NCBI GenBank assembly: GCA_963921795.1
Contig: OY997640.1
Coordinates: 12,147,023 to 12,211,022 of the forward strand
Reading direction: 5' to 3'
DNA from: Nannobrachium achirus
Taxonomy: Eukaryota; Chordata; Actinopteri; Myctophiformes; Myctophidae
DNA: 64,000 nt
Position numbers and translations under genes: made by a program. The notes under the pieces are model-generated. The model saw nothing but the letters and a program-made list of their open reading frames with translations. It made no database searches and was not told the origin of the DNA. Position 1 is the stretch's first letter, and the number at the start of each line of letters is the position of its first letter. Shown here piece after piece: positions 1 to 35,833 of the stretch.

Positions 1-219
1 GATGTCAGTGTGATGTCACTGTGACTCAGTACAGGAAGTGATGTCACGTGACGTGGTACAGAATTACTCATATATTAGTCTCGCGTGGCCAGACTGTTGC
101 CTCCGCGATTTGGTCAAATGCTCCCGGCATACAGTTGGCAAACCGGGGAAGAAACGATGAGTGCGAGATGAAGCGGAAGTGAAGCCCTCTCGTCACTTCC
201 GTTTCAGTCTCACATCTAC

Positions 220-640
220 TCATATATGGGCATAAAAAGGATGTCACATGACATCACTTCCCGTACTGACAGTCAGACAAGCTACAAGATTTCTCAGGGT
301 ATAAAAGTCCATATATGGTCATTCACAGAAAAATAAAAACTTTTATGTCCATACATGGAGATTTCTTATGTCATAAATCCCAGGTCGAAAATGAGAATGT
401 TACCATATTGGTACCATATTATATGGCCCATATATGGAGATCCACAGGCTTAAAACCAAGGCCCTAACTCACCAAGGCCCTGCTTGGCATTACAAATTAA
501 CATACGTTTTATGCCCATATATGGAGATTCCTATATTGTCGATATTAAGGACATTATTAAGGATATTATGTTATCAATATTAAGGACATATATGGGAATG
601 CCCATATTTGGTAATGTCCATATATGGGCATGTTTTGACA
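220..640. promoter_or_regulatory. Cluster of perfect CArG boxes, copy A
   Basis: Four CCATATATGG decamers (about 309, 429, 512 and 619), a perfect match to the SRF consensus CC(A/T)6GG, with TGACATCA-like sites at 246-265. The copy B cluster is at 23,720-24,120. Whether they act is unknown; they are part of a repeat. Confidence 0.5.
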
Positions 641-980
641 TAACATAAGAGAAATGCCCATCTCCATGTATGGGCATAACATTTATTGTATGTATATGGT
701 TACATATTATTAATAATAAAGGATACAATAAAAAGTCCATAATGGTCATTCCCAAAAAAGAAAAAAACCTTTTATGCCCATACATACATTCCTCCCTCTG
801 CGTCATCAGCGCCCACACCCTAGGTGGGGTTGGCGATAGGGCCTGTGTGGAGTTTGCATGTGTCTAGGGTTGATACCCTCACAAAAACATGAACAAACTC
901 TATAAATTTTAACAGATCTTTTCTATGGATATGTTGGAATCACGCAATTGTGTATACCGTACTATTTTCAGACCTTTTAT

Positions 981-1314
981 AGGAGTAGTTCACCCCCAAT
1001 TTTGGGGCCCCCAAAATGACTTTTTTTCCCTATACCGATTACTCACCCCATGGAGACTTGAGTTCAATAATATTTTGTTGTTTTTGTCGCGCATTCCTAA
1101 GTCAAAGATTTGATTATAGTAAATTCACTCCCATTGTTTCCGGATGGAGAACCAAATGCATTTGGGTCTCCATCCGGAATCAATGGGCCAACAAAGAGTC
1201 TCCTCATATAATTGGCTTAGGAATGCGACAAAAAACAAACAATATTATGTTACTCAAGTCTCCATGGGGTGAGTAATCCATAGAAAAAAGTCATAATGGG
1301 GGTGAACTACTCCT
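981..1314. mobile_element. Palindromic MITE (AGGAGTAGTTCACCCC ends), copy A
   Basis: Inverted ends AGGAGTAGTTCACCCCCA; the arms continue through 'gggtctccatccggaa'. A common fish MITE type. Confidence 0.75.
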
Positions 1315-1655
1315 TTAAACCCTCAATATTTAGTCAACTTGTTGACCGACGTTGGCTCTGTACTTGGTCTGCTCTTTTTCCCCTCAAACACCAACTCCCC
1401 CCGAAAATAGCCGATCTACAAGTTCACAATCGTTCCCTATCACACAAATATTTGGAGGACCCCCTGTTGAAGACCCCTGACCTGTACTGTATATATCTGC
1501 TCCTAATGAGCAGATTTTATGGGTGCAGCAGCAGAAACCCTGTAGCTTAGTGGTTTTCAACCCTTTTTATATCGTTGTCGTTGTCGGTTGGAAACCTTGT
1601 ATCTCCGAGACCGTTGATTTTGTATATATCATTTTAAAAATGAACTAAACTAGTG

Positions 1656-1737
1656 AAAATAGCAGATCTACAAGCACACAACGCCTCGCACCGCAAGACG
1701 TTGTGTGCTTGTAGATCGGCTGTTTTCACAACTTTTG
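1656..1737. repeat. AGATCTACAAGC hairpin family (type copy)
   Basis: A 60-90-bp near-palindrome: GTGAAAATAGCAGATCTACA, then CACAACGCCTCG, a loop, and the complement of the whole. Other copies: 3,344-3,401; 4,078-4,140; 5,935-6,012; 6,327-6,400; 13,487-13,557; 15,054-15,128; 28,336-28,400; 31,072-31,145; 36,322-36,392; 39,503-39,590; 40,569-40,628; 40,740-40,806; 58,000-58,075; 58,425-58,490; 59,316-59,418; 61,318-61,390; 63,232-63,304; 63,908-63,967; copies split by inserts at 30,056/30,750 and 41,190/48,003. Several share the following text 'aaagtaacagttttggacat', so part of the family is a longer MITE. Confidence 0.9.
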
Positions 1738-2252
1738 TGCGACAGCCTTGCATGATGAAGCAGGGCTTTACTTGGTGAAAATACGTACAGACTTGAAACT
1801 TGGAGATACGAGGTTTCTGCCAGACAGTGACGGGTCACACAAGGTCCATTATTTATTGGATATTTGAGCCCACAGAGCACCATTTGATGAGATTTAGCCT
1901 CTCAGACCCAACTTAGAATATTTTGTTGTCGTCTGTTAAGATTTTGTCCACAATTCCATGCTGTATTGATGTTGGCATTGTAGATGTTTAAAATGTACCC
2001 GTAAGGGTCCATTTGGTTTTATTTTACACTCGAAAGATCTGTAAGGGTCCATTTGGTTACCAAATCTCCATCAGTTTGCTATGGACCACCTGGAACCTCC
2101 TAAAAGCCTGGTTGAAAACCACTGCTGTAGCTCAAAGTACTGATGATGTGGAAGATGTTAGAGAGAAAAAATTAAAACAAAACATTTTTTGTCATTTGAA
2201 CTTTTATTTCTGTTTGTTTACAAAGCCTAAAAGCCAAACAGAAAATTGTATT

Positions 2253-2263
2253 TTTATTTTATT
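2253..2263 (-). terminator. Polyadenylation signals of lectin-like gene A
   Basis: Two overlapping AATAAA hexamers on the minus strand (2258-2253 and 2263-2258), 77-87 nt past the stop codon. Another lies at 2208-2203. Confidence 0.55.
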
Positions 2264-2339
2264 GTTTTATGTTCAAATGTTTAATGCCAAATCGTTAATC
2301 CCAATTATTTGTGTATATCAATTAATCGTCAGGTTAAAG

Positions 2340-5300
2340 TTACACCATTTCTTGCATGCACGCATCCACGGAACAGACGTATGGCTGCGTCTCCCAACAC
2401 TTCTGGTCGTCCCATTTGCCGTGAACTGGGTAGACAAAAAGATCAAGTTGTGCATTAGAATTCATCATCATCATTTATTTAACTCACGACCATGATCACA
2501 TGGTATGGATCACAGATAATATAAATACAGTATACAATACATAACACAATATAATATTCAAACAGACGTAGCAAAAAGGGGGCATAGCAGACATTATTTG
2601 AACAAGGGTATAACACTCTTTAGGAGAGCACCCAATTTACAAATAACTTTTGGCTTGTCGTTTTGTAGTAATAATGTCAATTTCCACATAGATGGCTGGG
2701 TTATGTGAAACTTTGGCAAGTATTTTTTTTTCTGAAATTCACAATGCTAGAGTTCTTGCACTCAAACAATACATGGAACTCATCCCCAACTCTGTTGTCA
2801 TTACATAAGTTACAAAACCTCCGGCTTCTTTCCAACCCTTTATATCTGCCAGTAACCTTTGGTATTCTTGTGTTATTTAATCTGAAATTACAAATGGCCC
2901 GTCAATAGTTAAGGTTTTCACACAGCAGGTACTTTTCCAGTTTAAACTCTTGTTTAAACTCCACATAAATGTCACATGATGTCATGCTGTTAAGTTCACT
3001 TTTTCACTTTTGCAAAAACTGATCTTTCATCCTTTGCTGATAGATCACATGAAGAGACACACTATGCATTAGAATGTGTTCCTTAAGACCACATTTCTTA
3101 GAGCAGGGGTTCTCAACCTGTGGGTCGGGAGCCCCAGGGGGTTCCCCAAATTATTTTGGGGGGTCCCCAGATGATTAACTTAATGTGCAACATTGTTTCA
3201 CTCAACAGTAAACAAACCAACACAACGTTTAAGTGTATAGAGGGTATCTGCACATTTTTTAAGTGACAACTTAAGAACTTTTTAATACCTCTAAAATGGC
3301 AAATTAAACATTGGCCAAACTGTCAAATAGAGGCTGAAATTGTGAAAATAGCAGATCTACATGCTGTTGTGAGCATGTAGATCTGCTATTTTCACAATAC
3401 AACCGTTATACAAAATGTAATGCCTCAACTCTTAGTGCTCGTCAGGGTGGGGGGGTCCCCAGTTAAATTATTTTGGGGGTCGCTGCCACTGCCTCAGAGG
3501 AGGGTAAAAGGGAATTAGCCCACTCTAGATCATAGTAGCGTATAATGTGTATCATTGATTGATTCCCCTCCTCCCCAAAAACAAACAAACAAAGTGTGTC
3601 CTCTATCAGTTCAATAAGGGTCTTGGGCGGATTCACACTGCAATCCGTTTTATTAGAACTGTTTTTGAAAACGGTTGCTGGTTCACGCTGGCCAGCATTC
3701 ACATTGGCAAAGCTTCTTCCCTCCCTGGAGAACACTAGCACTATACATCCCGATCCATAGGTGGCGGTGTGCACATAGTGCCTCGCTGGTGAATACAGAC
3801 GTCATCAACTATGTGACATTGCTGATTCTGGTCGCCAAGAAATTCAGGCACGAAAGTTGATGTAACATCCAATGCCTCTTCATGTTTCCGACGCGCAACA
3901 GCGCAGTGTGGAACAGTGTTGCAGTGGTCTTGGGTCGCGCGCCCCCGACGACCCAAACCTTTTCTGAGCCGGGGTCTCGCACCCCCCGAAGTTCACACCT
4001 CGACAACTGTTTAACAAAGAAACAAGCCTATTTGCATATCTATAGACCTGTATAGTAGGTGTCGAGCGACGTCCGCTGATCTACAAGCTCACAATGCCTC
4101 GCATCCGCGACGCGTTGTGAGCTTGTAGATCTGCTATTTTCCAGGCGCAGAAACTTGCAGAATGATGAGCGAGTCACTGTGTCAGACGTCCAGCGCAGCG
4201 CAGCGCAGCGCAGCGCAGCGCAGCGCACGTTATTATTATCCGCAGTCGCGGGACACAGAGCAATGAGTCAGTGTCGATCTGACTCGTATCAGAAAAAACG
4301 GATCATAAACAGGGGGAGGCACAGCACGTGGACGAGAGCTAACAGTGTGGACATGTCATGGACACAGGCTGCGAAACACAAACAGCATTTGGATTACAAA
4401 AACACTGGAACAATTCAGAAGCACTTAATTAGAAAATGTAACTAGTAGCTGTGTATGTTAATCTGACTTTAGTAGGCTAGATTGTTTACATCTTGGACTT
4501 GGACATGCGTTTGTGCTGTGGCAGGTTATTTAATATCGGATTTTGACAGCTTGCTTCTCCTCTTAACGGAGCACCGTCCCGGCTCCGAATGTTTTAGCGG
4601 AGCGGCGGTTCTGGCCGTTCCGTCTCACTTTCACCCCTGCACTCAGTGCGCTGGTGCGAGACAATAAATAACTGTTAGCCAATTCACCCTTTGTTAGCCT
4701 TCTGGTTGGTCCCTGACTGACCAACTAGCAGGCTCTATCTGCCTTGTCCCGCCCTGGTTCCACCTTTTTTATGTTGAATTTGCTAAAACATAATTTTTGG
4801 AGAAATAAAAACATTTAAAAACATGCTGAGTCACTATACTGCCACTGAGCAGCTCCATTTCACTGAAACCAAGTTTGAAATGAGAATTGAATACACAGAA
4901 TAACAATACGAAGCAACTGAATTACAATGGTAGTGGATGGAGTGTCCCACCGAATGTCCCACCAAGACACAGCAACCAATGGGTGTGAAGAGGGGCGGGA
5001 CAACGGGCGGGACTTGACAAAGGGTGAATTGCTACTTCTCTCAATTGGAAGTACATGACACCAGTCCAGCGCACCGCAGTAGTAGGCTAACTGGTGATAT
5101 AAAAAAACGTATATTTTCGACTCCTCGACTCAAACAATTGATGTCGATTCCCGGGGCTTAAAACGACGCGTCGATTCGTCTAATTTTAGAAGACAGCCCT
5201 ACAAGCAAGCAATCTCTCTGTTAGACCAAGTCGCTGATCTCATGGTCATGTTGACAACTGTTACCTAGTGTTTATTTGTGGCGACGCCTGACTCGTCGAC

Positions 5301-8300
5301 TTTATATGAGGTCACGTTCAAGACCACTCCCGTTTTTTTGGGGACGGTAGCTTCACACTGCAGTGCACCGTTCTCGAGGACGCACCATGCGTTGATCCGT
5401 TTCTGAGGAAAACCGCAGGCTTCACACTGTCAAAACATCTGCCAAGTAGCCTCGAGAACGTTCCCGAGACCGCAGTGTGGATCCGCCCTTAGTGTCCAAA
5501 TGCAAAGAGATTCTGTATTTCAAGGGACTGTTGGAAACCCTATGTCCTCTTCTTAAAACAGGGGTTTTCAATCAAATTGGGTGACGGGCGTGATGGCAGT
5601 CCAGGGGTGCCGCGAGATAATTTGATAATATTTGGAATTTATTTGGACACTTAAAAATATATTTACTGTCTTGAAACTTGAAGTACAAAGTTATTTTCAT
5701 TCAGTTCTAACCAAAATGGCTATTATCTCAACGCTTCCCTCGCAACATAATCGCTGAAATATGCCATAAATATAAGGTGCTGGGAGTGAAAATTATGAAT
5801 ATAATGCAGGGGTGCCTCAGATGAAAAGAATATTTATAGGGGTGCCCTGAGCCAAAAAGGTTTGGGAACCCCTGTCTTAACCCATTCAGAACGGGTACAC
5901 ATTATTGTGTATTATTATTTTATGCTTTAACTATTGAAAAAATAGCAGATATACAAGCTCGCAGCGCGGCACTCGGTGCCGCGCTGTGAGCTTGTAGATC
6001 TGCTATTTTTCTATAGTTAAAGCATTCAATAATCTCAGGCCTAAATGGGTTTTAAAGAAACGCAAAGAAAAGAACAGTGTTGTTGTTGTGGATGACTTAC
6101 TTAGTGACCAGTTCGTGACCACACAGTCCTGTTGACCAAAACCATCATCAGGCTGTCCCGTAGCCCAGCCTGTGTATTTCATCGGACGTCCATCACTCCA
6201 CAACCATACACGTTCCTGGACCAGAAGAAAAGTAGAATTTAATGCAGGGGTCTTCAACAGGGGATCTTCCCATCCTTTTTATATTAACAACTTGAACCCT
6301 AGTGTCCATATTCTGAGAACTGTAGCCAAAAATAGCAGATCTACTGCAACGCCTCGCAGTGCGAGGCGTTGTGAGCGTGTAGATCGGCTATTTTTGGCAA
6401 AGAGGTTTGATATAGAGGGGGAAAAGAGCAGACTAAGTACAGAGTGAAAGGTCAAGTTTATTAGGTAATGACGGCTCAAGTGGTTAAATATCTGAAAACA
6501 CAAATTGACATGAATCCAAAATACACTGACTGTCAAAAGATGAAACTATATGGAATCTATGAACAGGTTGTGGGGGTCCCTGCTTCATCTCTCAACTAAG
6601 GGGTCCTTGGTCTGAAAACGTTGAAGACCCCTGATTTAATGCATCGATAGAATAGAATAGAATAGAATAGAATAGAATAGAATAGAGCACAGTACAGTAC
6701 AGTAAAGACATTTAGTTTTACTTAAATAAAAGCAATACCACAATATAAAGATTGTTGAAAACTTGTGAAATGGGACATTCTGCACAATAACTTCTGCTTT
6801 TGGAACTTATATTTTAACCTGTTAACAATCCTGTATAATTTGCAAAAAACGCCTATACACAGCGTACCCAAAGTAAATTGATTGTTGTTTTTAAACCATT
6901 TGGAGTAATGCATTGGGCATGGTCTCATTTTGAAGGAAACATTTTGAAGTTTTACCCAGAAATAAATAATCACTCATGTGCAACTGACATTGAGTAATGC
7001 AAGTTTTAACTTACTGGAATAGCAGTTTTTTAATCCTCGCCTAAATATTTTCAGTAAATAGATGCCTACATAACACTGTTATTATCATATAGGAGCTGAA
7101 AAACACAATGTGGCCACATTTTGAAGCCTTACCTAGCCCAATTTCAAAGGACATTATAAAACTACAGAATATGAATATTTTACACATGTTTTACTAAGTG
7201 TATGTTTATGCATTTTCATTTGGAGACATTTGCATATATCATATAAAAAGGTTAAAAAAGGGCTAATAGACTGTTTTATTTTATTTTATTTTTTTAATGT
7301 TATTATTTTAATTTATTTATTATTATTATTATTTAATGTATTTATTTTACTGACAGCCCTAACACTTTGGTCTGACATTCGGCGCCGCTGCTGCGCATTT
7401 ACGCACGTCCAGTAGAGCTGTTACGCAGGGGTTTTTGGGTATTGTAGTTCACTTCAGCCAAAATAAAGTAGACACATTTTGTGGAGAATTTCATTGGCTA
7501 TAAGAAGTGCCAGTCATCAGAACAAACTGCTGCCATTGGCTGAATATATGGGCCAGGAAACGGAGTCATGGACCACCTCTGAGAACATACTATTGGTTGC
7601 TATTGGGGGACTGGGAGACGACTGAGACAGGACTAGAAGCTCCAATTGGGTGAAATGAAGTGTCAAAGTGTCAATCATAGTTTGGGGGCCATTTTGTGAC
7701 CAAACCAAGGGTTATACTGAAAATGTGGACTGGATTTACATGCAAAACACCGCGAAGAATTGTCTGTCGTCGTCATCACGTTTGTATATCTGGCAATGGG
7801 AGAACAGTGATGGCATGAAGGAAAACATGGTTTGGACTATTTTCAATCAATGGCTTGGATTATGTGTACTTTCCACGAAATAAGAACAACATTATTGTGG
7901 AAATAGATCATGTTGGAGGACTAGAAACCAGTTTTGAACGTGAGTAGCAATAACTTTATCAACATTTGTTTGTTTATGTATGTTGGACTTCAACGTTGAT
8001 AGTAGCGCGACCACAGGGTTTGCAGCTCTGTAATCACAAGACTTGTGGCTTTCTATAGGTATGCGACATGCCCGTTTAGGTGAAACACACGCTTGCGTGG
8101 ACGTGAATGTTTGTCAAAGTACGGCCGGCCGGCCCGCCGGCGGGCCGAGAACTGATAAGAGGTTGGTATATTGTGACGCCAATATATTTAATCTTTCACA
8201 GCTACATTCACAACGAGGTCAGCTATTTTCTACACAGAGAGTTAAATACTTTCAACATAAGACAAGTTCAGGAGAGTTTGGACAAGGCAATTCTCTTGAA

Positions 8301-11300
8301 TGCTGCCTTCAGGTATGGCATGGAAAGGGGGGCATTTGCATTTCTTTCACCAGTGTAAAAACGGCATTCATGGTCTGGACAGGGCACATTTTTACAGATG
8401 GATGAAAGGGAAGGGGCTTGATGTCTATGTGTGCACGTGCCTGATGGTGATTAACATACCTTTGAGGCATCAGAGCCTCCAATCCAGGCTGCGACATTCC
8501 ATTTGCTTTTTATCACCCCTTTGACGAATTCGTCCTCCGCTTGGCTGTGTATGGATGCTAGGTTTCCTCCCAACTTCTGGCAGCGCAGCTACAGAAAGAC
8601 AGAAAGCAGGGCTCTTAAAGAGGCGGTGCCATAGTCTTGAGGTTGACAGTACTTCATTAGACCCCCTGGTGTGGTTGTTATGAGCAATTATGTATTCACT
8701 TTGTATTTGGGATTTCTTCCTGGAGGCTGACACCTTGTGGGTCAAAAGTGCCGATCCAAAAACACAGATATAATGACATCATATAATCATCCCCTCCCCT
8801 TTTACCATTCACCCAACACTGTGGGTGTGGCTAACTTCAGCTGGGTCACCACCCACCATGACAGGCAGGCATACTTAATGAACTGGTGGGTGTGGCCACA
8901 TAAAAACCTAATTTTAACTCTTTCTTTCTGTACACTTTTTGGGAAAAAAATGTTCCTCCTAGTATAATCATAATAGCTGATAATCATGTTTTAGAGGGGG
9001 AAATATCATGGCACCCCATCTTTAAAGGTGTTCCAGACCAAGGACTCCCTCAGCCAGTGGTGCTTTGGTGTTTTTCTTTTCAGGGCAGACGAACATGTAT
9101 TGACGTCACCTGCACGCGCACCTTGAGATGTGTGCGTAAACCTACATGTGCGCATGGAGCAAACAGGGGACGTCAATTTGGTATGGCAGGGGTATGCAGC
9201 TGCCATACCCTGGGTCCAGGGGGAAAATAAAAGTTACTTTTACATATAAATCCTCTTTTTCTATCTGTTCTGGTTATTATGTTGTTAAATTATTAAATAA
9301 CTACAAATAATTATATTCTCCACACTTTTATTCTCCCCATCTTGACAAAATGGTATATTCCCAGGTTCCGCAAGTCAGCTGCACAGGTGCAATTCATTAT
9401 TCTTAATTGTGGCACGTTTACTAACATGCCAAGTTTAGCTGCACTTGAACAACCCAGGCTGCCATATCCAGCCCAAGAAACCATAGAAATGTGGGGAAAC
9501 ATAAAATGTACCATGCCTTGTTGCTAAGGTATGGCAACATGACTGGTGTCTTGCACTCGTGTTTTCGCGCGCGTGCAAGACACCAGTCATGTTGCCATAC
9601 CTTAGCCTTTTCTGAACTGACGCCACTGGGAGCATTTAGAAAATACTGCGTGGCAGTAGAAACTAAAAGTTTGCTTAGAACGAATCTCAAACAGTACCCA
9701 CTACAGTCATGGAGCCATGTAGCCTATGAGGACGCACGCACAATGCACATACAGTCACTGCTGTGAATCTATGGGGATGTGTAAACCTGGTAAACGTGTT
9801 ATGCAAATAGCCATTTGATTAGATAGGCCATGGCGCGTTGTCACCCGTATAGCATATAACTCTATGGTTCCTGCATGCACTGTTCCATGCCGTTCCTGCG
9901 CATGCATGTGGGAAATATATCGGCCTGAAGGCGTCCGGTCATGTCCGGGCCTCGAAAGCACTACTGCCCTCAGCTGTTTTAATCTGAAACTGTGTTTCAG
10001 ATTAAACTCTTTCATAGATTTCATAGATAGCTTCATATAGACTTGTTTGACAGCACTGTCATCAGTATTTTCACAACTATAACCACTAAAATCTACTCAA
10101 TACCGCCCCCTCTGGCAGGGTCATGTTTACTTGAACCGCCAATACTTTAGTCCAGGTGTTTCGGGCAGTATTTTGATGGAATCGTGCACTTTATGAAAGA
10201 AGCATGGAATTTGGCACACAGTTAGAACATGCCATTATGGAACATTTTTGGCTATAGGGGCATCGCAGATTTGTCACGGGAAACTTGTGGGAGCCAATCA
10301 AAGTTGGGCTCTCATAGACTTTACTATAGAGTAAAATAATACAAAAAATAAATATGCTTTACAGTAAGTAGCAGGGGCGCAGGAGGCATTTTAAAAGTGA
10401 AGGGGACACATCTGGGAGGTATGTGCGCGCGTGTAGCGCGCGCGAAAAATTTTGGGGTATCCCCCCCACTTTTGGTGATATCCCCCCCACTTTTGCCCCG
10501 AGGAGGGGGGGACATATCCCTGTGTCAAACCAAAGACACATGTCGGCTGCTGTCTTTTTTTTGTTGTTGTTGTTGTTGTCAGAATTCGCCTGGTCATAAA
10601 GTTTCATAAATCATGAAAATTAAATCACTACAATTTGTTCTATGTTCTGTGCATGTTGACAAGTTTCAAACCGAAGACACCACATGCATGTACAGTGTTT
10701 TACTTTAGTAAAATATTCTGTGACCAGTGAGTGACACTGACAGTGATTCTTTCACTCTTTCACTGATTTATTTTCACGTGGGGCCATGAGTGATTGCCTC
10801 ATTGGTGTCCATTTTTGGGTCCGACATGAAAAAGTTGGGAACCACAGTAACAAGAGGAAACGTAAAATGTGTTGACAAACGAAATTGCATTTCCATTATG
10901 CATCTGTTCAAAGGTAGGTCTACTTACATTGTTGCTTGATTTAAAGAACGACGTTATCGTTTTTTGGTTTTTTGACCGTTTCATTTTGACTGAGAATGAT
11001 GTGAGACTAGCCTACACACACCAGCAGCAGGTCCAGCACCTGCAATGACGGTCTCCTCCTGCCACTGCCTGCCTGCTTGTCACTATCGCGTTGCATTAAT
11101 TAAACTCATTCAGAACAGCTGAGCTGAGCTGCCGACTGCACTGCACTGCACTGGTGGGACTGTGCCTCTAGAGGGCAGTAATACGCCTTGAAATGAGAAC
11201 TACTCAGTGTGTACAGTATAATCGATCATATTTGCGGCTTTTTCTTGGACCTGAACACTGGAGGGGATATCCCCCCCACCCAAAAAAAGTGGAGGTGTTA

Positions 11301-12494
11301 ATCCCCCCGTCCCCCCCTACCCCCTGCGCGCATGGTAAGTAGCATGTGAGGGGTGAAACTAGGTGTTTTTTGGGATTCTGAATCCAATGCAAACATTTGT
11401 TTTGCAGGAAAAACAATCCTTGAGCTAAGAACTGACCCCATAAATGCTTGCATTGGATTCAGAATCCCGAAAAACACCTAGTTTGACCTCTCACATGCTG
11501 CTTAAAGCATATTTATTTTTTGTATTATTTCACTCTATAGTAAAGTCTATGAGAGCCCAACTTTGATTGGCTCCCACAAGTTTCCAAAGACAAATCTGCG
11601 ATGCCCCTATAGCCAAAAATGTTCCATATGGCATGTTCTAACTGTGTGCCAAATGTCATGATTCTTTCATAAAGTGCAAAATGTTTGCCTGAAACGCTCT
11701 GACTGCTTAGTAAAATTGACCTTTCAACTCTGTAGGCCTTCTTGGCTTTCTCTACCCTGTAGATCTGTTATTTTTGAAAAGTCGTGCAAATCTTTGAATA
11801 TGTATTTTTAAAGCGAACATTTGTAATTTTTTAGTACATTTTGCTTCTGGGGTCCCTGCCCTGGAACTAAATATTTTGAGATGGGAGTCCGTGGCCAAAT
11901 ACATATCATTTTGGGGGTCCTTGACATAAAAAAAGTTTGAGCACCACTGACATAGAAGCAATCAATTGATTGCGTTTTGGTTTGGATCAATGGAATTGAT
12001 ATATGGGCAGCTTAAGTTCCTATACTGTATGATGAAAACACATTTGTCAAAGTTTTGAAGAAAAAAATACCATGACATTTTAGTTTGACATTATTAGTAG
12101 TAGGCCAAACATTAAAGTTATAATGATATACTCAAATCTCAGTTTGGCAAATATTTGGGGGCCCAATTGCAATATCAGTATATCAATATTTTTATGTTTT
12201 TTTTAATCATAATAAAAAATAATTGCAAATATTATTTGTTAGCAATTGAACTTACATGTTGAACATTTACTTTAGCTGTGTAGGCCTATATCGTCAGCAG
12301 TATTGAATAATCAGTCCATTCTGCATTTCAACGATAATGCTCATTCTAATCACCTCTGCAGTACCCCAGTCCACTTTTTCCTTGAAGAATTGGAAGCAGC
12401 GCTGATCGTGATATGTCCATCCACTTGGACATCTACCGGCTTCTGTTAGAACAACCACAGCACAGAGCAACAGAGCCGCTCTCAGGACCCTCAT
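2340..12494 (-). CDS. C-type lectin-like secreted protein, copy A (4 coding exons, 156 aa)
   Basis: Coding exons, in order of translation, are 12494-12354, 8588-8460, 6215-6101 and 2425-2340 on the minus strand. Each intron has GT and AG borders, phases are 0, 0 and 1, and the sum is 471 nt ending in TAA. Residues 1-20 are a signal peptide (MRVLRAALLLCAVVVL core). One C-type lectin domain follows: C22/C33 hairpin, C50, LASIH 57-61, WIGG 82-85, WLWSDG 94-99, QPD 111-113, C121, WDD 133-135, C138 and YVC 144-146, with an extra C151 in the tail. Known members of this family bind sugars with Ca2+ held near QPD and WND; fish ladderlectins and type II antifreeze proteins share this size and layout. 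Whether this one binds Ca2+, galactose or ice is not shown. The first donor (GTGATT) is weak. AATAAA lies ~80 nt past the stop. The mobile elements all sit in introns. A secreted lectin-like product is well supported; its exact role is not. Confidence 0.88.
3625..5490. mobile_element. Possible composite element with GGGCGGATTCACACTGC ends
   Basis: Left GGGCGGATTCACACTGC and right (complement) AAGGGCGGATCCACACTGC. It encloses the AATT MITE and a CAGCG array (4,191-4,225). Copy B keeps only the right end (about 29,609), so the pairing is uncertain. Confidence 0.4.
4685..5026. mobile_element. 342-bp MITE with AATT target duplication, copy A only
   Basis: Perfect 10-bp inverted ends CACCCTTTGT. 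AATT flanks at 4,681-4,684 and 5,027-5,030. Copy B has the single AATT near 29,101. The superfamily is not clear. Confidence 0.85.
6245..6633. mobile_element. hAT-type MITE (CAGGGGTCTTCAAC family), copy A
   Basis: Inverted ends CAGGGGTCTTCAAC, flanked by ATTTAATG at 6,237-6,244 and 6,634-6,641. It lies 30 bp from the acceptor of the third coding exon of lectin A and holds a hairpin (6,327-6,400). A related truncated copy lies at 13,566-13,800. Confidence 0.88.
9524..9607. repeat. Long hairpin (GGTATGGCAACATGACTGG), copy A
   Basis: A stem of ~33 bp closed by a short G/C-rich loop, in intron 2 of lectin A. The copy B equivalent is 32,885-32,967, where the inner stem pairs better. Confidence 0.85.
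10144..11712. mobile_element. Long-TIR foldback element, copy A (interrupted by hAT)
   Basis: Arms of over 250 bp, e.g. 'gagagcccaactttgattgg' near 11,550 against its complement near 10,300. An inner pair round 'ctaggtgttttttgggattc' meets near 11,430. In intron 2 of lectin A. Confidence 0.75.
10372..11334. mobile_element. hAT-type nonautonomous element, copy A only
   Basis: Ends CAGGGGCGCAGGAGG and (complement) CATGCGCGCAGGGGG. Flanked by GTAAGTAG at 10,364-10,371 and 11,335-11,342. Copy B has the uninterrupted site near 33,738. It sits inside a long-TIR foldback element. Confidence 0.85.
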
Positions 12495-12518
12495 GGTGAT
12501 GGAGATGATGATGATTGC

Positions 12519-12521
12519 CTT

Positions 12522-12568
<47 letters not shown>
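12519..12568 (+). repeat. (GA)n microsatellite forming the exon-2 pyrimidine tract, copy A
   Basis: About 23 GA units. On the gene strand this is a CT run that ends at the AAG acceptor of the exon carrying the lectin start codon. Copy B has about 43 units (35,282-35,371). Confidence 0.85.
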
Positions 12569-12570
<2 letters not shown>

Positions 12571-12624
12571 TTAGTGATATTTCTGAAGAAAAGTAACAGC
12601 AAAGAGACATGGAGTACATTCTCA

Positions 12625-13005
12625 TGGAGAAAGTACTTACATTTTATACTTTAGTAAAAGTATCAATACTGCAATCTAGAAATACTCTGTTACAAGTAAA
12701 AGTCTGTAATTCAACTTGAGTAAAAGTACAAAAGTGTTGGCATCAAAACGTACCTATTGTACCAAAAGTAAAAGTACAAAATGTTTGAAAATAGCCAAGG
12801 TATAGAATAGGGCTAAAGTGCATTAATGTATGTTTTATAATATAATCATTTATATCTGCAAATAATAATAATAAATACAAATAGTTGTAGTGGAGTAATG
12901 AAGTGGAGTAGAAGTAAAAGTACTGAAAACTGGAACAACTCAAGTAAAGTATAAATACCTCAAAACTGTACTTAAGGACAGTACTTAAGTAAACATAGTT
13001 AGTTA
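12625..13005 (-). mobile_element. AAGTAC-rich hAT-like MITE in lectin intron 1, copy A
   Basis: Runs of 'gagtaaaagtacaaaagtgt' and 'acttaagtaaacatagttag'. It resembles the fish repeat starting CAGTGGTGTAAAGTAAC. Its outer end has been replaced by a GGAGA array (13,006-13,063). Confidence 0.6.
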
Positions 13006-13075
13006 CTGAAGGAGAGGAGAGGAGAGGAGAGGAGAGGAGAGGAGAGGAGAGGAGAGGAGAGGAGTTGTCTCAAAC

Positions 13076-13138
13076 CTTCAGCAGAATTCCCTCCCGTGCG
13101 TTGAGGTGCTGAAGAAGAGAAACGGAGGCTCTTATATA
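13076..13138 (-). promoter_or_regulatory. TATA box and 5' UTR exon of lectin-like gene A
   Basis: On the minus strand TATATAAG (13138-13131) stands ~30 bp before a short exon ending at 13076 with the donor GAAG|GTTTGA. The next acceptor, at 12519-12520, leads into the exon with the start codon 24 nt later. The start of transcription is inferred near 13,104. The copy B counterpart is equally well kept. Confidence 0.65.
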
Positions 13139-13273
13139 CAGTGTGTCTCAGCACCTGTGCGTGAGTTCATATTGTAATTGTCCATAGCCTCAAGTATGCA
13201 CATTTGGGTTCAATTGGGTTGGCACAGTACGATCAGCACATTATAATATACATGCACACCTTTATGTACATAC

Positions 13274-13317
13274 CTTGTACCCGGGGCTTTGGTAGTCCAT
13301 CACTCCACAACCATGTA
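13274..13317 (-). pseudogene. Relic of a lectin exon (WLWSDG), copy A
   Basis: Minus-strand reading gives TWLWSDGLPKPRVQ followed by a GT (gtatgt). The first half matches the WLWSDG exon of the gene downstream, and the upstream intron text (ctactttt) also matches, but the acceptor is lost and the QPD part is gone. It lies ~140 bp upstream of the TATA box, so it looks like debris of a third tandem lectin gene. Confidence 0.6.
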
Positions 13318-14356
13318 TACATTTATAAAAGTAGAAATGAATGCAGCAATAATAGACTAGAATAGAGCACAGTACAGCAGAGCAGTGGTTCTCAACCTTT
13401 TCAGGGTGTGACCCCCAAATTAATCATATTTTAACTGGTGACCTAAGAGTTGGGGAATTACATTTAGTATAACATGGTTTTATTGAGAAAATAGCAGATT
13501 ACAAGCTCACAACGAGGCGTTGTGAGTATGTAGATCAGCAATTTTCAAAATTTCTGCCTCTAATGCAGGGGGTCTTCAACGTTTTCAGGCCAAGGACCCC
13601 TTAGTTGAGAGAGAGAGATGAAGCAGGGACCCCCACAACCTGATCATAGATTCCATATAGTTTCATCTTTTGACAGTCAGTGTATTTTGGATTTATGACA
13701 ATTTGTGTTTTCAGATATTTAACCACTTGAGCCATCATTACCTAATAAAGTTGACCTTTCACTTGGTACTTTGTCTGCTCTTTTTCCCCTCTACCGGTAT
13801 AAGTATATTTTGATGCCAATACCTTTGTGCTTTTACTCAACGAAGCGACACATTTGAGCTTGTAGATCGGCTACTTTTGAGTTTAATTCTTTAAAAGTAA
13901 CACATCCGGGGTTTGCGCACCAATATTTTCGGACCTTTCCAAACCTCTGCTCAGTGAAGAAATCTTCGGTTGTCATCTTGGTAGAGACTTTCCTGGACTC
14001 CACCATTCCAGAGGGGCAGATGAGATACAGATTCCAGGCTACTCACTCAGCTGTCGCAGAGGTCGCATATCTGGAGCGACCTGTGGTGGCATAGCAGTCT
14101 ATATGGGTGCTGTGACGCAATAAGTAACGAAATAGGTTACGTTTAAATATGGAGATAAGAGGTTTCTGTTGACAGCAACAATATGCAATGTGCCCACCAT
14201 GGAGTGAGTGTGGAAATATAGTGGCTCTCTCCATCATCAAAGTTGCCCACCCCTGGTCTAGATACCAAACAAGATCATCACCATGATCTTATTTGGTACA
14301 ATGCCCCCACGCAGTCGCTATAGCGCTGTCACCTGACAGCAAGAAGGTCCTGGGTT

Positions 14357-16556: not shown

Positions 16557-16559
16557 AAT

Positions 16560-22945: not shown

Positions 22946-24210
22946 TCAGTATCTGTGATGTCACAGTGACACATCACCTCAGTATCAGGCGTTACACGTA
23001 TACATTGAGCAGGGCAAAGGTGTGACGTGTGTGACGGACGGACGGACGGACGGACGGACGGACGGACGGACGGACGGTGGAGGTTTTCATACTAAACTGC
23101 GACCTTACGGTCGCAATAAGTCTTACCGTCTGATGAGGAAACAGTGGATGCAATCTGTTCCGATGCAGGACAGTGATGGGCTATTTATTAATCCAAAAGA
23201 CTATAATCTCCCCTCAGTATAAAGCTCGGGTCCATATCTAGCTCTGGTCCATAGCGTTAACTAACGCTATGGACCAGAGGTAGTCCATATCTATATATTG
23301 GATAGCAGCTATTCACTTCCAGTATGCCTTGGATTCCATGACCTTTTTGCCTCTGTAAACGTGAGCAATGATCAGTATATTCTTGTGACCGAAGGTCGCA
23401 TTATTGTTGCGACCGAAGGTCGCATTATTGCGACCGAAAAACCTTGTCGCTTGAAAAACCTTGTCACTTGTCTGCCTGGCTGTACAGGAAGTGATGTCAG
23501 TGTGATGTCACTGTGACTCAGTACAGGAAGTGATGTCACGTGACGTGGTACAGAATTACTCATATATTAGTCTCGTGTGGCCAGACTGTTGCCTCCGCGA
23601 TTTGGTCAAATGCTCCCGGCATACAGTCTGGCAAACCGGGGAAGAAACAATGAGTGCGAGATGAAGCGGAAGTGAAGCCCTCTCGTCACTTCCGTTTCAG
23701 TCTCACATCTACTCATATATGGGCATAAAAAGGATGTCACATGACATCACTTCCCGTACTGACAGTCAGACAAGCTACAAGATTTCTCAGGGTATAAAAG
23801 TCCATATATGGTCATTCCCAGAAAAAGAAAAACTTTTATGTCCATACATGGAGATTTCTTATGTCATAAATCCCAGGTCGAAAATGAGAATGTTACCATA
23901 TTGGTACCATATTATATGGCCCATATATGGAGATCCACAGGCTTAAAACCAAGGCCCTAACTCACCAAGGCCCTGCTTGGCATTTCAAATTAACATACGT
24001 TTTATGCCCATATATGGAGATTCCTATATTGTCGATATTAAGGACATTATTAAGGATATTATGTTATCAATATTAAGGACATATATGGGAATGCCCATAT
24101 TTGGTAATGTCCATATATGGGCATGTTTTGACATAACATAAGAGAAATGCCCATCTCCATGTATGGGCATAACATTTATTGTATGTATATGGTTACATAT
24201 TATTAATAAT

Positions 24211-25566
24211 AAAGGACTAGAAGTCGGGAACAATGTAAATAGGGAATGAATGCCCAGCCCTTTAATGCAAACCTCATTATACCTGTTGTCATAGGATCCG
24301 TTTTGACCATCTGTTTGCGTGTGTCCATTTATGCCCATATATGGAGATATCTGTCTGTCTGCGTCCATTTTATGTCCATATATGGAGATCTCTGTAGGAC
24401 CCGTATTAACCATCTGTTTGCCTGTGTCCATTTATGCTCATATATGGAGATATCTGTCTGTCTGCATCCATTTTATGCCCATATATGGATATTCTGTATC
24501 TGTTTGTCTGTGTCCCTTTATGCCCATTATGGAGATCTCTGCATCTGTCTGTGCCCCCGAGTGCCGAATTTGAAATAGGGAATGAATGCCCCACCCTTTA
24601 ATGCAAACCCCATTATACCTGTTGTCATAAGACCCGTTTTGACCATCTGTTTACCTTTGTCAATTTATACCCATATATGGAGATCTCTGCAGACAAAGTA
24701 CCGGTTCCGGCCATACCCTTTAATGCAAACCCCATTATACCTGTTGTCACCATCTGTTTGCCTTTGTCCACTTATGCCCATATATGGAGATCTCTGCAGA
24801 CACAGCACCCCTTACTTTACTTACAGAGCGCCCGGGAGTTCCCTAGCCCCTGGGCTCCTTATTCCCCTTTATTATTTAAGTTTAGCGTGAGAGGGAACAG
24901 CCCGGGCTTATCCACATTATTCACCTGGTTCTCTTAAAGGCACAGCCCGCTAATTCCCCTGAACCCAACCGCTCTGAAGAGCACCCTGAACTTTGCTCAC
25001 CTCAAAGTGAGAGGAAGAAAGACTTTAGTTTATGCCACACTCAGAGAGATTTTTTTTGTTGACTCATGTAGCGTACGTGATGTCAGAGCCTTTTATGAAG
25101 TGATGTCACAATGAGTCAGCGCTTGCTCCGGAACAGCCCGATGTCAGTCATCTCCGCATACGGAGATTCCAAACCTTTCGTGCCGGATCCGAAAAACTGT
25201 GTATTGGGTCGGGTCGAGGCCTAGCTAAGAACGTAGGCAAAGGTCTGAGCTATCTGTGTGCGAAATTTGGAGTCTGTAGTACCAACCATGTGCTGTCAGG
25301 GTTCATCCATGCGATTCGGGCCAATTCGGATTCAGCGTCCATTGGCTTCAATTAGTAGTCAGGACTCCGCATATGGAGATTCCGAACCTTTCGCGTTGGT
25401 TCCGGAAAACCGCATATCGGGTCGGGTCGAGGCCTAGCTAAGAACGTAGGCAAAGGTCTGAGCTATCTGCGTGCAAAATTTGGAGTCTGTAGCACCAACC
25501 ATGTGCTGTCAGGGCTCATCCATGCGATTCGGGCCAATTCGGCCTCGGCTTCAATTAGTAGTCACG
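24211..25566 (+). repeat. CArG-box and other tandem repeats, copy B only
   Basis: From 24,240 there are repeated units with CCATATATGGAGAT and 'accatctgtttgcct'. From 25,142 to 25,563 there are two ~220-bp units with 'gaggcctagctaagaacgta'. Copy A joins directly across this block at about 719. Confidence 0.85.
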
Positions 25567-25824
25567 ATACAATAAAAAGTCCATAATGGTCATTCCCAAA
25601 AAAGAAAAAAACCTTTTATGCCCATACATACATTCCTCCCTCTGCGTCATCAGCGCCCACACCCTAGGTGGGGTTGGCGATAGGGCCTGTGTGGAGTTTG
25701 CATGTGTCTAGGGTTGATACCCTCACAAAAACATGAACAAACTCTATAGATTTTAACAGATCTTTTCTATGGATATGTTGGAATCACGCAATTGTATATA
25801 CCGTACTATTTTCAGACCTTTTAT

Positions 25825-26129
25825 AGGAGTAGTTCACCCCCAAAATGACTTTTTTTCCCTATACCGATTACTCACCCCATGGAGACTTGAGTTTTTTTTT
25901 GTCGCGCATTCCTAAGTCAAAGATTTGATTATAGTAAATTCACTCCCATTGTTTCCGGATGGAGAACCAAATGCATTTGGGTCTCCATCCGGAATCAATG
26001 GGCCAACAAAGAGTCTCCTCATATAATTGGCTTAGGAATGCGACAAAAAACAAATAATATTATGTTACTCAAGTCTACATGGGGTGAGTAATCCATAGAA
26101 AAAAGTCATTTTGGGGGTGAACTACTCCT
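25825..26129. mobile_element. Palindromic MITE (AGGAGTAGTTCACCCC ends), copy B
   Basis: Copy B version; shorter near the left end and missing ~15 bp after 'gacttgag'. Confidence 0.75.
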
Positions 26130-26738
26130 TTAAACCCTCAATATTTAGTCAACTTGTTGACCGACGTTGGCTCTGTACTTGGTCTGCTCTTTTTCCCCTC
26201 AAACACCAACTCCCCCCGAAAATAGCCGATCTACAAGTTCACAATCGTTCCCTATCACACAAATATTTGGAGGACCCCCTGTTGAAGACCCCTGACCTGT
26301 ACTGTATATCTGCTCCTAATGAGCAGGTTGTATGGGTGCAGCAGCAGAAACCCTGTAGCTTAGTGGTTTTCAACCCTTTTTCATATCGTCGTTGTCGGGT
26401 GGAAACCTTGTATGTCCAAGACCGTTTTTTTAAAATGAACTAAAGTGATGCTGTATTGATGTTGGCATTGTAGATGTTTAAAATGTACCCGTGAGGGTCC
26501 ATTTGGTTTTATTTTACACTCGAAAGATCTATAAGGGTCCATTTGGTTACCAAATCTCCATCAGTTAGCTATGGACCACCTGGAACCCCCTAAAAGCCTG
26601 GTTGAAAACCACTGCTGTAGCTCAAAGTACTGATGTGGAAGTTGTTAGAGAGAAAAAAAACGAAAACAAAACATTTGTCATTTGAACTTTTATTTCTGTT
26701 TGTTTACAAAGCCTAAAAGCCAAACAGAAAATTGTATT

Positions 26739-26749
26739 TTTATTTTATT
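26739..26749 (-). terminator. Polyadenylation signals of lectin-like gene B
   Basis: Two overlapping AATAAA hexamers on the minus strand, ~90 nt past the copy B stop codon, conserved with copy A. Confidence 0.55.
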
Positions 26750-26834
26750 GTTTTATGTTCAAATGTTCAATGCCAAATCGTTAATCCCAATTATTTGTGT
26801 ATATCAATTAATCGTCAGGTTAAAGTGCCACAAT

Positions 26835-29800
26835 TTATTGCATGCATGCATCCACGGAACAGACGTATGGCTGCGTCCACCAACACTGCTGGTCGTCCCA
26901 TTTGCGGTGGACTGGGTAGACAAAAAGATCAAGTTGTGCATTAGAATTCATCGTCATCATTTATTTAACTCACGACCATGATCACATGGTATGGATCACA
27001 GATTATATAAACACAGTATACAATACATAACACAATATAATATTCAAACAGACGTAGCAAAAAGGGGGCATAGCAAACATTATTTGAACAAGGGTATAAC
27101 ACTCTTTAGGAGAGCACCCAATTTACAAATAACTTTTGGCTTGTCGTTTTGTAGTAATAATGTCAATTTCCACATAGATGGCTGGGTTATGTGAAACTTT
27201 GTCAAGTATTTTTTTTTCTGAAATTCCCAATGCTAGAGTTCTTGCACTCAAACAATACATGGAACTCATCCCCAACTCTGTTGTCATTACATAAATTACA
27301 AAACCTCTGGCTTCTTTCCAACCCTTTATATCTGCCAGTAACCTTTGGTATGCTTGTGTTATTTAATCTGAAATTACAAATGGCCCGTCAATAGTTAAAG
27401 TTATACCATGTAACTTTTTTTATAAAACAAATCTTAAAATTGTCCTAACTGTTAAATCGCTAAAGTTTTAGAACCCCCACTCCGTTAATTTCAGCTTCTA
27501 AAGCCTTCTCTTTATATGTTTTCTATGAGCCGTGAGGGGGGGAGAATTTTGCGGCAAAATGACGTCATCTGCATCATGTGTATACGTTGGCCAATCATAT
27601 CGCCGATCATAAACACATGGTACACTACCGGCCAATCACAGGCGCATCTTGCTGACTTCTCAGGGAGTAGCTTGCCTCAACATAACAACAACATACTCGG
27701 GTGAAGGAGTCCGTTTCTCCGGAATGCCTGAACGCACAGGAACCAGGGACCCCTCTAAAGATAGATCTCGGCGAGCTGCAGGCGGACGCGGTGGCGAGAG
27801 GAACGGTCCGCGGCGAAAAACGGCCGAAAGACGCGGACGCGACCGCGGTTTGCTATACAGCTCTGACCACTAGTTGAGCAACTTACACAGTATAGCTTTA
27901 AGGTTTTCACACATGCAGCAGGTATTTTTCCAGTTTAAACTCTTGTTTAAACTCTTGTTTAAACTCCACATAAATGTCACATGATGTCATACTGTTCCAC
28001 TTTTGCAAAAACTGATCTTTCATCCTTTGCTGATAGATCACATAAAGAGACACACTATGCATTAGAATGTGTTCCTTAAGACCACATTTCTTGGAGCAGG
28101 GGTTCTCAACCTGTGGGTCGGGAGCCCCAGGGGGGTCCCCAAATTATTTTGGGGGGTCCCCAGATGATTAACTTAATGTGCAACATTGTTTCACTCAACA
28201 GTAAACAAACCAACACAACGTTTAAGTGTATAGAGGGTATCTGCACATTTTTAAAGTGACAACTTAAGAACTTTTTAATACCTCTAAAATGGCAAATTAA
28301 ACATTGGCCAAACTGTCAAATAGAGGCTGAAATTGTGAAAATAGCAGATCTACATGATCTGCTATTCTTGAAATTGTGAAAATAGCAGATCTACATGCTC
28401 AGCGCAGCGCACGTTATTATTTTTATTATTTAATAATCAACGTAGCCTACAATTGAAACGCTTTCACAAGCCACAGTGTGGCTTAATATTCACATTAAGG
28501 GTAGGCACAGCAGTGCACACCGATAACACCGTTAAAACAAATAAAACCTCTCCGCTGTTCAACTCTGCCCCGTCGGCAATCAGCGCAGTAGAGATGAGAC
28601 ATTCGCGAACGATTCGGCTCTCTTGAACGGCTCTTTTAAATGAACGATGGGATCCAGTCCGCGGTCGCGGGACACAGAGCAATGAGTCAGTGTCGATCTG
28701 ACTCGTATCAGAAAAAACGGATCATAAACAGGGGGAGGCACAGCTCATGGACGAGAGCTAACAGTGTGGACATGTCATGGACACAGGCTGCGAAACACAA
28801 ACAGCATTTGGATTACAAAAACACTGGAACAATTCAGAAGCACTTAATTAGAAAATGTAACTAGTAGCTGTGTATGTTAATCTGACTTTAGTAGGCTAGA
28901 TTGTTTACATCTTGGACTTGGACATGCGTTTGTGCTGTGGCAGGTTATTTAATATGGGATTTTGACAGCTTGCTTCTCCTCTTAACGGAGCACCGTCCCG
29001 GCTCCGAATGTTTTAACGGAGCGGCGGTTCTGGCCGTTCCGTCTCACTTTCACCCCTGCGCTCAGTGCGCTGGTGCGAGCCAATAAATAACTGTTAGCCA
29101 ATTGCTACTTCTCTCAATTGGAAGTACATGACACCAGTCCAGCGCACCGCAGTATTAGGCTAACTGGTGATATAAAAAAAGTATATTTTCGGCTCCTAGA
29201 CTCAAACAATTGGTGTCGATTCCCGGGGCTTAAAACGACGCGTCGATTCGTCGAATTTTAGAAGACAGCCCTACAAGCAAGCAATCTCTCTGTTAGACCA
29301 AGTCGCTGATCTCATGGCCATGTTGACAACTGTTACCTAGTGTTTATTTGTGGCGACGCCTGACTCGTCGACTTTATATGAGGTCACGTTCAAGACCACT
29401 TCCTTTTTTGTGGACGGTAGCTTCACACTGCAGTGCACCGTTCTCGAGGACGCACCATGCAGCCTCGAGACTACCTCCGGAGGTGGTCTCGACTCTCGAG
29501 GCTGGTTGCGTTGCTCCGTTTCTGAGGAAAACCGCAGGCTTCACACTGTCAAAACATCTGCCAAGTAGCCTCGAGAACGTTCCCGAGACCGCAGTGTGAA
29601 TCCGCCCTTAGTGTCCAAATGCAAGGAGATTCTGTATTTCAAGGGACTGTTGGAAACCCTATGTCCTCTTCTTAAAACAGGGGTTTTCAATCAAATTGGG
29701 TGACGGGCGTGATGGCAGTCCAGGGGTGCCGCGAGATAATTTGATAATATTTGGAATTTATTTGGACACTTAAAAATATATTTACTGTCTTGAAACTTGA

Positions 29801-32800
29801 AGTACAAAGTTATTTTCATTCCGTTCTAACCAAAATGGCTATTATCTCAACGCTTCCCTCGCAACATAATCGCTGAAATATGCCATAAATATAAGGTGCT
29901 GGGAGTGAAAATTATGAATATAATGCAGGGGTGCCTCGGATGAAAAGAATATTTATAGGGGTGCCCTGAGCCAAAAAGGTTTGGGAACCCCTGTCTTAAC
30001 CCATTCAGAACGGGTACACATTATTGTGTATTATTATTTTATGCTTTAACTATTGAAAAATAGCAGATCTACAAGCTCGCAGCACGGCCCAGTAGGGGCG
30101 AGATCATTTAGCGACCTACAACTGGGTTGCAACCTGGTCGGTAGTTTTCACCGACTGGGTTGCTAAATCTACCGACTGGGTCGCTAAATCTACCGACTGG
30201 GTCGCTAAATCTACCGACTGGGTCGCTAAATCTACCAACCGGGCTGCAAAATCACCGACCGGGCCAGGTCAGTGATTTAGCGGCCCGTTCGGTAGATTTA
30301 GCGACCCAGTCGGTGATTTACCGGCCCGGTCGGTATATTTAGCGACCCAGTCGGTAGATTTAGCAACCCAGTTGGTAGATTTAGCGACCCAGTCTGTGAT
30401 TTGCTGACCCAGTCGGTAGATTTAGCGACCCAGTCGGTAGATTTAGCGACCCAGTCTGTAGATTTAGCGATCCAGTCGGTAAATTTTGCGACCCAGTCGG
30501 TAGATTTAGCGACCCTGTCGGTAAATTAAGCGACCCAGTCGGTAGATTTAGCGACCCAGTCGGTAGATTTAGCGACCCAGTCGGTAGATTTAGCGACCCA
30601 GCCGGTAAATTTAGCGACCCAGGCGGTAGATTTAGCAACCCAGTCGGTGAAAACTACAGACCAGGTTGCAACCCAGTTGTAGGTCGCTAAATGATCTCGC
30701 CCCCTCTCGCGCGGCACTTGGTGCCGCGCTGCGAGCTTGTAGATCTGCTATTTTTCTATAGTTAAAGCATTCAATAATCTCAGGCCTAAATGGGTTTTAA
30801 AGAAACGCAAAGAAAAGAACAGTGTTGTTGTTGTGGATGACTTACTAAGTGACCAGTTCATGACCGCACAGTGCTGTACACTAGCAGCATTATCAGGCTG
30901 TCCCGTAGCCCAGCCCGTGTATTTCATCGGACGTCCATCACTCCACAACCATACACGTTCCTGGACCAGAAGAAAAGTAGAATTTAATGCAGGGGTCTTC
31001 AATAGGGGATCTTCCCATCCTTTTTATATTAACAACTTGAACCCTAGTGTCCATATTCTGAGAACTGTAGCCAAAAATAGCAGATCTACTGCAACGCCTC
31101 GCAGTGCGAGTTGTTGTGAGCGTGTAGATTGGCTATTTTTGGCAAAGAGGTTTGATATAGAGGGGGAAAAGAGCAGACTAAGTACAGAGTGAAAGGTCAA
31201 GTTTATTAGGTAATGACGGCTCAAGTGGTTAAATATCTGAAAACACAAATTGACATGAATCCAAAATACACTGACTGTCAAAAGATGAAACTATATGGAA
31301 TCTATGAACAGGTTGTGGGGGTCCCTGCTTCATCTCTCTCTCAACTAAGGGGTCCTTGGTCTGAAAACCTTGAAGACCCCTGATTTAATGCATCGATAGA
31401 ATAGAATAGAATAGAATAGAATAGAATAGAGCACAGTACAGTACAGTAAAGAAATTTAGTTTTACTTAAATAAAAGCAATACCACAATATAAAGATTGTT
31501 GAAAACTTGTGAAATGGGACATTCTGCACAATGACTTCTGCTTTTGGAACTTATATTTTAAGTATATTGTGACGCCAATATATTTAATCTTTCACAGCTA
31601 CATTCACAACGATGTCAGCTATTTTCGATGCTTGATTTCTACACAGAGAGTTAAATACTTTCAACATAAGACAAGTTCAGGAGAGTTTGGACAAGGCAAT
31701 TCTCTTGAATGCTGCCTTCAGGTATGGCATGGAAAGAGGGCATTTGCATTTCTTTCACCATTGTAAAAACGGCATTCATGGTCTGGACAGGGCACATTTT
31801 TACAGATGGATGAAAGGGAAGGGGCTTGATGTCTATGTGTGCACGTGCCTGATGGTGATTAACATACCTTTGATGCATCAGAGCCTCCAATCCAGGCTGC
31901 GACATTCCATTTGCTTTTTATCACCCCTTTGACGAAATCGTCCTCCGCTTGGCTGTGTATGGATGCTAGGTTTCCTCCCAACTTCTGGCAGCGCAGCTAC
32001 AGAAAGACAGAAAGCAGGGCTCTTAAAGAGGCGGTGCCATAGTCTTGAGGTTGACAGTACTTCATTAGACCCCCTGGTGTGGTTGTTATGAGCAATTATG
32101 TATTCACTTTGTATTTGGGATTCCTTCCTGGAGGCTGACACCTTGTGGGTCAAAAGTGCCGATCCAAAAACACAGATATAATGACATCATATAATCATCC
32201 CCTCCCCTTTTACCATTCACCCAACACTGTGGGTGTGGCTAACTTCAGCTGGGTCACCACCCACCATGACAGGCAGGCATACTTAATGAACTGGTGGGTG
32301 TGGCCACATAAAAACCTAATTTTAACTCTTTCTTTCTGTACACTTTTTGGGAAAAAAATGTTCCTGATAATCATGTTTTAGAGGGGGAAATATCATGGCA
32401 CCCCATCTTTAAAGGTGTTCCAGACCAAGGACTCCCTCAGCCAGTGGTGCTTTGGTGTTTTCTTTTCAGGGCAGACGAACATGTATTGACGTCACCTGCA
32501 CGCGCACCTTGAGATCTGTGCGTAAACCTACATGTGCGCATGGAGCAAACAGGGGACGTCAATTTGGTATGGCAGGGGTATGCAGCTGCCATACCCTGGG
32601 TCCAGGGGGAAAATAAAAGTTACTTTTACATATAAATCCTCTTTTTCTATCTGTTCTGGTTATTATGTTGTTAAATTACCGTAAAATAACTACAAATAAT
32701 TATATTCTCCACACTTTTATTCTCCCCATCTTGACAAAATGGTATATTCCCAGGTTCCGCAAGTCAGCTGCACAGGTGCAATTCATTATTCTTAATTGTG

Positions 32801-35257: not shown

Positions 35258-35281
35258 GGTGATGGAGATGATGATGATTGC

Positions 35282-35286
35282 CTTCT

Positions 35287-35371
<85 letters not shown>
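35282..35371 (+). repeat. (GA)n microsatellite forming the exon-2 pyrimidine tract, copy B
   Basis: About 43 GA units directly beside the acceptor of exon 2, almost twice the copy A length. Confidence 0.85.
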
Positions 35372-35375
<4 letters not shown>

Positions 35376-35427
35376 TTAGTGATATTTCGGAAGAAAAGTA
35401 ACAGCAAAGAGACATGGAGTACTTTCT

Positions 35428-35833
35428 CATGGAGAAAGTACTTACATTTTATACTTTAGTAAAAGTATCAATACTGCAATCTAGAAATACTTACTTTACA
35501 AGTAAAAGTCTGGAATTCAACTTGAGTAAAAGTACAAAAGTGTTGGCATCAAAACGTACTTATTGTACCAAAAGTAAAAGTACAAAATGTTTGAAAATAG
35601 CCAAGGTATTAGGGCTAAAGTGCATTAATGTATGTTTTATAATATAATCATGTATATCTGCAAATGATAATAATAAATACAAATAATTGTAGTGGAGTAA
35701 AAGTACAATATTTGCCTCTGAGATGAAGTGGAGTAGAAGTAAAAGTACTGAAAACTGGAACAACTCAAGTAAAGTATAAATACCTCAAAACTGTACTTAA
35801 GGACAGTACTTAAGTAAACATAGTTAGTTACTG
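35428..35833 (-). mobile_element. AAGTAC-rich hAT-like MITE in lectin intron 1, copy B
   Basis: Same insertion as 12,625-13,005, with ~20 bp more near 35,705. Confidence 0.6.

Follow-up and report, generated by a model that had tools for sequence, protein, structure and literature searches.

Why do two neighbouring lectin genes, nearly identical over most of their length, differ so sharply in a few codons of the loop beside their calcium site? The question is raised by a 64,000-nucleotide stretch of the myctophid fish Nannobrachium achirus (contig OY997640.1; C3:12147023-12211022 within a 1.66-Gb assembly of 564 contigs), referred to here as the window. It holds two copies of a C-type lectin gene, A and B, both on the minus strand, lying inside duplicated units with an exon-to-exon spacing of 23–25 kb. 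An earlier reading of the letters alone (the sequence-only reading) had singled out the loop between these two copies. It had not reported a third tandem copy, C, which lies outside the window in the same array and has its own loop, unlike that of A or B. The explanation that we favour, by a slight balance of probability, is that the ligand face of this tandem QPD C-type lectin array (A, B and C) has been under diversifying selection.

Divergence of exons 3 and 4 between copies A and B

The loop comprises codons 114–124, located at 6114..6146 in A and 30859..30891 in B (both minus strand). It reads DGFGQQDCVVT in A (6146-6114) and NAASVQHCAVM in B (30891-30859), with 8 of 11 residues different, as the sequence-only reading had counted. 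The peptides quoted there did not hold: QPDDGFGQQDC and QPDNAASVQHC are codons 111–121, of which 6 of 11 differ, placing that text three codons off its coordinates. Across the two genes, our recount agreed on both the replacements (14 codons) and the silent changes (5). Near-identity of the surrounding noncoding DNA, put at ~98%, was also borne out, the aligned blocks differing at 134 of 8,959 bases (1.5%), or at 113 of 8,836 without one alignment edge and a poly-A tract. Clustering, which had been taken as the signal, was confirmed by random placement: 10 differences fall in the densest window of 33 bases, compared with a maximum of 8 in 5,000 placements.

The duplicated unit is thus mostly near-identical, while exons 3 and 4, which code for the long loop and strand of the calcium/sugar site, are several-fold more diverged. 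Exon 3, with the QPD motif and the hypervariable loop (6101..6215 in A, minus strand; acceptor GTCCAG, donor A/GTAAGT), differs at 12 of 115 bases. The coding part of exon 4 (2340..2425 in A, minus strand; acceptor CTACCCAG) differs at 10 of 86 and forms a second cluster, absent from the sequence-only reading. Its replacements G131R, K137Q and E140W surround the W-D-D motif, and the codons that differ after 128 are 129, 131, 137, 140 and 150. The stop codon has shifted as well, which had likewise gone unreported: at 2340-2351, four base changes in 11 bases remove from A the stop that follows ACMQ in B and C, and A stops three codons later, ending in ACMQEMV.

All 22 differences of exons 3 and 4 fall inside 2340-2425 and 6101-6215. 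Outside exon 3, the closest differences lie 114 and 43 bases away, and outside exon 4, 58 and 42 bases away. Exons 1 and 2 stay at background level, with proportions of changed replacement sites (pN) of 0.014 and of changed silent sites (pS) of 0.017. Exons 3 and 4 carry 14 replacement base changes (in 11 codons), where the noncoding rate would predict 2.3 (P = 1.5e-7). Nor does the loop rate match that of the nearby intron, a match that the sequence-only reading had named as a refutation: the A/B loop lies ~11-fold above it.

The calcium site and the loop across the lectin family

Both proteins match Pfam Lectin_C (PF00059), A with 70.7 bits and B with 69.1 bits against a cut-off of 22.6. The QPD motif occupies codons 111–113 in A and B, with QPN in copy C instead. 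Between A and B, the residues of the calcium site (Q111, P112, D113, Q119, D134 and D135) and C121 are identical, and their neighbours are changed. Neither gene has lost its reading frame, a cysteine or a calcium-site position. Residues beside the calcium ligands tune binding in C-type lectins. The Glu and Asn-Asp ligands expected of a galactose-type QPD fish lectin were not found in A and B, which have Gln119 and Asp134-Asp135; we call the copies QPD-class by motif only, and galactose binding is at most predicted.

In the herring type II antifreeze protein (AFP), the calcium ligands are described as Gln92, Asp94, Glu99, Asn113 and Asp114, with loop residues contacting the ligand (PMC1891086). 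Aligned to it by eye, A and B keep Gln111, Asp113, Gln119, Asp134 and Asp135, and the changes fall between or beside these residues. A WDD motif is reported from bivalve lectins (PMC12842671).

A side observation concerns the second ligand pair, whose members are encoded in exons 3 and 4. In 25 rows (23 distinct paralogue rows from loci L009-L073, plus A and B), acid and amide are swapped in a coupled manner: 11 rows have Glu with Asn, 7 have Gln with Asp, none has Glu with Asp, and 7 have other residues. The regular expression did not catch copy C, which breaks the rule (Gln with Asn); with C included, Fisher's test gives P = 1.6e-4. The Gln/Asp pair was found only alongside QPD.

We compared the loop with its flanking intron in 435 pairs of 30 loci, A, B and C included, at least one locus (L068) having no intron there. 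Pairs were kept if they had at most 14 differences in the first 63 exon bases and at least 120 aligned flank bases that were less than 15% different. The 27 pairs that passed have members in common and are not independent. A and B differ at 10 of 51 loop bases and at 1.8% of the upstream intron; the corresponding values are 18 of 51 and 8.6% for A and C, and 16 of 51 and 10.5% for B and C. Among the 24 other related pairs, the loop is more than twofold above the flanking intron in 12. The loop is fast across much of the lectin family, and A/B is the extreme case.

This locus represents a small part of an extensive set of lectins. A genome search with the protein gave at least 150 scored places, separate exons of one gene being counted individually. 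Outside the window, matches cluster at C4:11.5-11.7 Mb, C10:9.0-9.7 and 50.97-51.0 Mb, and C2:21.9-22.05 Mb. The majority of matches in these clusters cover the bulk of the domain in a single open frame and are probably lectin genes lacking introns there. Elsewhere, the loci L069 (C11) and L070 (on the small contig C367) differ at 5 of 800 intron bases; they are possibly two haplotypes, giving a rough hint of heterozygosity.

Competing explanations for the divergence

A, B and C are tandem genes for small secreted QPD-class C-type lectins. Under diversifying selection, differing ligand specificity among the copies would have been favoured, for instance towards distinct glycans of microbes or mucus. 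New replacements would be the main source of the variants, perhaps aided by older exon variants that were kept or imported, and the outcome would be neighbouring lectins with one scaffold and distinct binding faces. The shift to different glycans is what we infer from the sequences. Selection for new ligands, one of two origins offered by the sequence-only reading, fits the excess of replacements, their location at the site and the fast loop in relatives; dN/dS, the ratio of replacement to silent rates, does not prove it.

Several observations weigh against this explanation. In exons 3 and 4, pN is 0.091 (14 of 153.5 sites) and pS is 0.113 (4 of 35.5), such that silent sites are as diverged as replacement sites; the replacement rate exceeds that of noncoding DNA but not that of silent sites. 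The silent sites themselves exceed the noncoding rate (P = 0.002), an excess that does not follow from selection on residues alone. Because they are raised too, recent selection acting on residues does not account for the whole pattern. Within the loop, replacement changes (10 of 43 sites) do not significantly outnumber silent ones (1 of 11; Fisher P = 0.43). Three exon 4 differences, belonging to the four tail changes in A, lie past B's stop codon. In the family comparison, the other 12 of the 24 related pairs lack a twofold excess in the loop, and the three youngest pairs (flank below 1%) each have 0 of 51 loop bases changed. Against the clustering itself stands noncoding 2959-2998, which likewise holds 10 differences, at a gapped alignment-block edge; once this edge and the poly-A tract are excluded, the noncoding maximum is 4.

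Raised silent sites bear on the other origin offered by the sequence-only reading, a short conversion tract from another paralogue. Such an import would bring an exon-limited tract from a diverged paralogue into A or B, ending at the exon borders where the introns are unable to pair. It would account for the exon-exact limits of the changes, the raised silent sites and the A-specific four changes in 11 bases that move the stop codon. Neither donor nor tract tests support it: at up to 3 mismatches in 30, the loop search found no donor for either loop elsewhere in the 1.66-Gb assembly, and permutation tests for tracts in common with the paralogues of highest similarity were negative (P = 0.49 and 0.77). 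Because the silent sites of exons 3 and 4 are raised and the changes stop at exon borders, we retain import as an explanation, albeit an unlikely one. A further reading, in which the array of near-identical genes is an exon-cassette system with a common scaffold and introns, and exons 3 and 4, the entire binding face, are repeatedly swapped from a very large paralogue reservoir to yield germline-encoded variable lectins, seems to us quite improbable. A divergence peak under concerted evolution is a possibility that we hold tentatively, as a minority view: the copies would be older than they look, conversion would homogenize the introns and exons 1 and 2, and selection would shield the old differences in exons 3 and 4 from it, as in the red/green opsins. 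In a comparison of all three copies, made to look for ongoing conversion in the rest of the unit, no clear patchwork was seen.

A and B might be two alleles misassembled in tandem, the loop being a polymorphism; they are only 1.5% different, and L069/L070, one of the youngest other pairs, which includes a small contig, suggests that haplotype leftovers may exist. However, copy C in the same array carries the same duplicated unit, the A/B noncoding divergence (1.3-1.5%) is about twice that of L069/L070, a 21-bp array is listed for intron 3 of B and not for A, and loop alleles this unlike would themselves need balancing selection. On this indirect evidence, we regard misassembled alleles as very unlikely. 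Relaxed constraint, by which copies that no longer bind calcium or sugar would drift in the loop, could be read from the Gln that A and B have at the position of herring AFP Glu99 and from the QPN of copy C. Drift should, however, stay within the intron rate that the A/B loop so far exceeds, and the intact frames, cysteines and calcium-site positions of A and B also speak against decay, to which we give hardly any credence.

Comparable systems, gene models and other elements of the window

With diversifying selection as the favoured explanation, the A/B pattern is best read as ordinary in kind and unusually sharp, of the divergence-peak type that opsins, congerins and venom genes also show. 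The red and green opsins are described as tandem duplicates ~24 kb apart with a divergence peak in exon 5 and near-identical introns (PMC3924837). A and B are also in tandem at ~24 kb, their introns are near-identical and their differences are concentrated in what would be the specificity-setting exon. Ongoing conversion belongs to the opsin model, whereas the comparison for A/B concerns the exon peak alone.

Congerins I and II, duplicated galectins of conger eel skin mucus, are reported with a dN/dS of 2.6 and changed sugar specificity (PMC3269628). Like A and B, they are fish lectin duplicates with accelerated replacements; unlike them, they are galectins rather than C-type lectins, and the A/B replacements exceed the noncoding rate, not the silent rate. 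Accelerated segment switch in exons (ASSET) is described for snake venom genes (PMC2711939). There too, a short exon segment of the binding surface is radically altered between close paralogues, but A and B are not venom proteins and have kept both reading frame and loop length.

Type II AFPs (PDB 2afp, 2zib, 2py2 and 6jk4) are the top-scoring single-domain solved relatives of the whole A/B protein, and the QPD calcium loop is common to A/B and the calcium-dependent type II AFPs (PMC1891086, PMC2440524). Features reported for type II AFPs include the disulphides Cys69-Cys100 and Cys89-Cys111 (herring numbering), the ice-binding residues Thr96 and Thr98, and the ligand Glu99 (PMC1891086). We rejected a type II antifreeze identity, as A and B lack the two extra disulphides (by eye), the glutamate ligand (Gln119 instead) and the ice-binding threonines; by eye, codons 114–118 contain no Thr in either copy. 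Searching with only the part from exons 3-4 gave 32 matches, among which sea raven AFP ranked lowest, after mannose receptors and collectins.

A and B form a clean natural contrast, two lectins near-identical save for the binding face. The pair is suited to testing how changes in the calcium-site loop alter sugar choice, and to asking whether it is new mutation or exon exchange that diversifies the lectin arrays of fish.

Each gene is split into four coding exons whose splice signals are ordinary, and all three introns in A and B are bounded by open frames and GT/AG signals. The products, of 156 residues in A and 153 in B, consist of a signal peptide (by eye) and a single C-type lectin domain. 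In A, exon 1 (12354..12494, minus strand; donor GAG/GTGATT) encodes the signal peptide and N-terminus (MRVLRAALLLCAVVVLTEAGRCPSGW...TAE), and exon 2 lies at 8460..8588 (minus strand; LRCQKLGGNLASIHSQAEDEF...SDASK; acceptor TGTAG, donor GTATGT). The exons of B, all on the minus strand, are found at 35117..35257, 31868..31996, 30846..30960 and, for the coding part of exon 4, 26835..26911, the last ending in ACMQ and the stop common to copy C.

By self-comparison, unit A (1..13984) and unit B (23493..36820) consist of unstranded blocks that align to each other with gaps, with an extra 85% block at 16158-16602 and 38496-38965, respectively. The array in intron 3 of copy B, at 30133-30648, is a 21-base tandem array with an internal inversion. 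Long minus-strand frames at 41844-47567 belong to what looks like a DIRS-type retroelement, being reverse-transcriptase-like and tyrosine-recombinase-like by eye. Further along the window, 51367-52953 and 54374-55957 form a large inverted repeat with 94.7% identity over ~1.6 kb.
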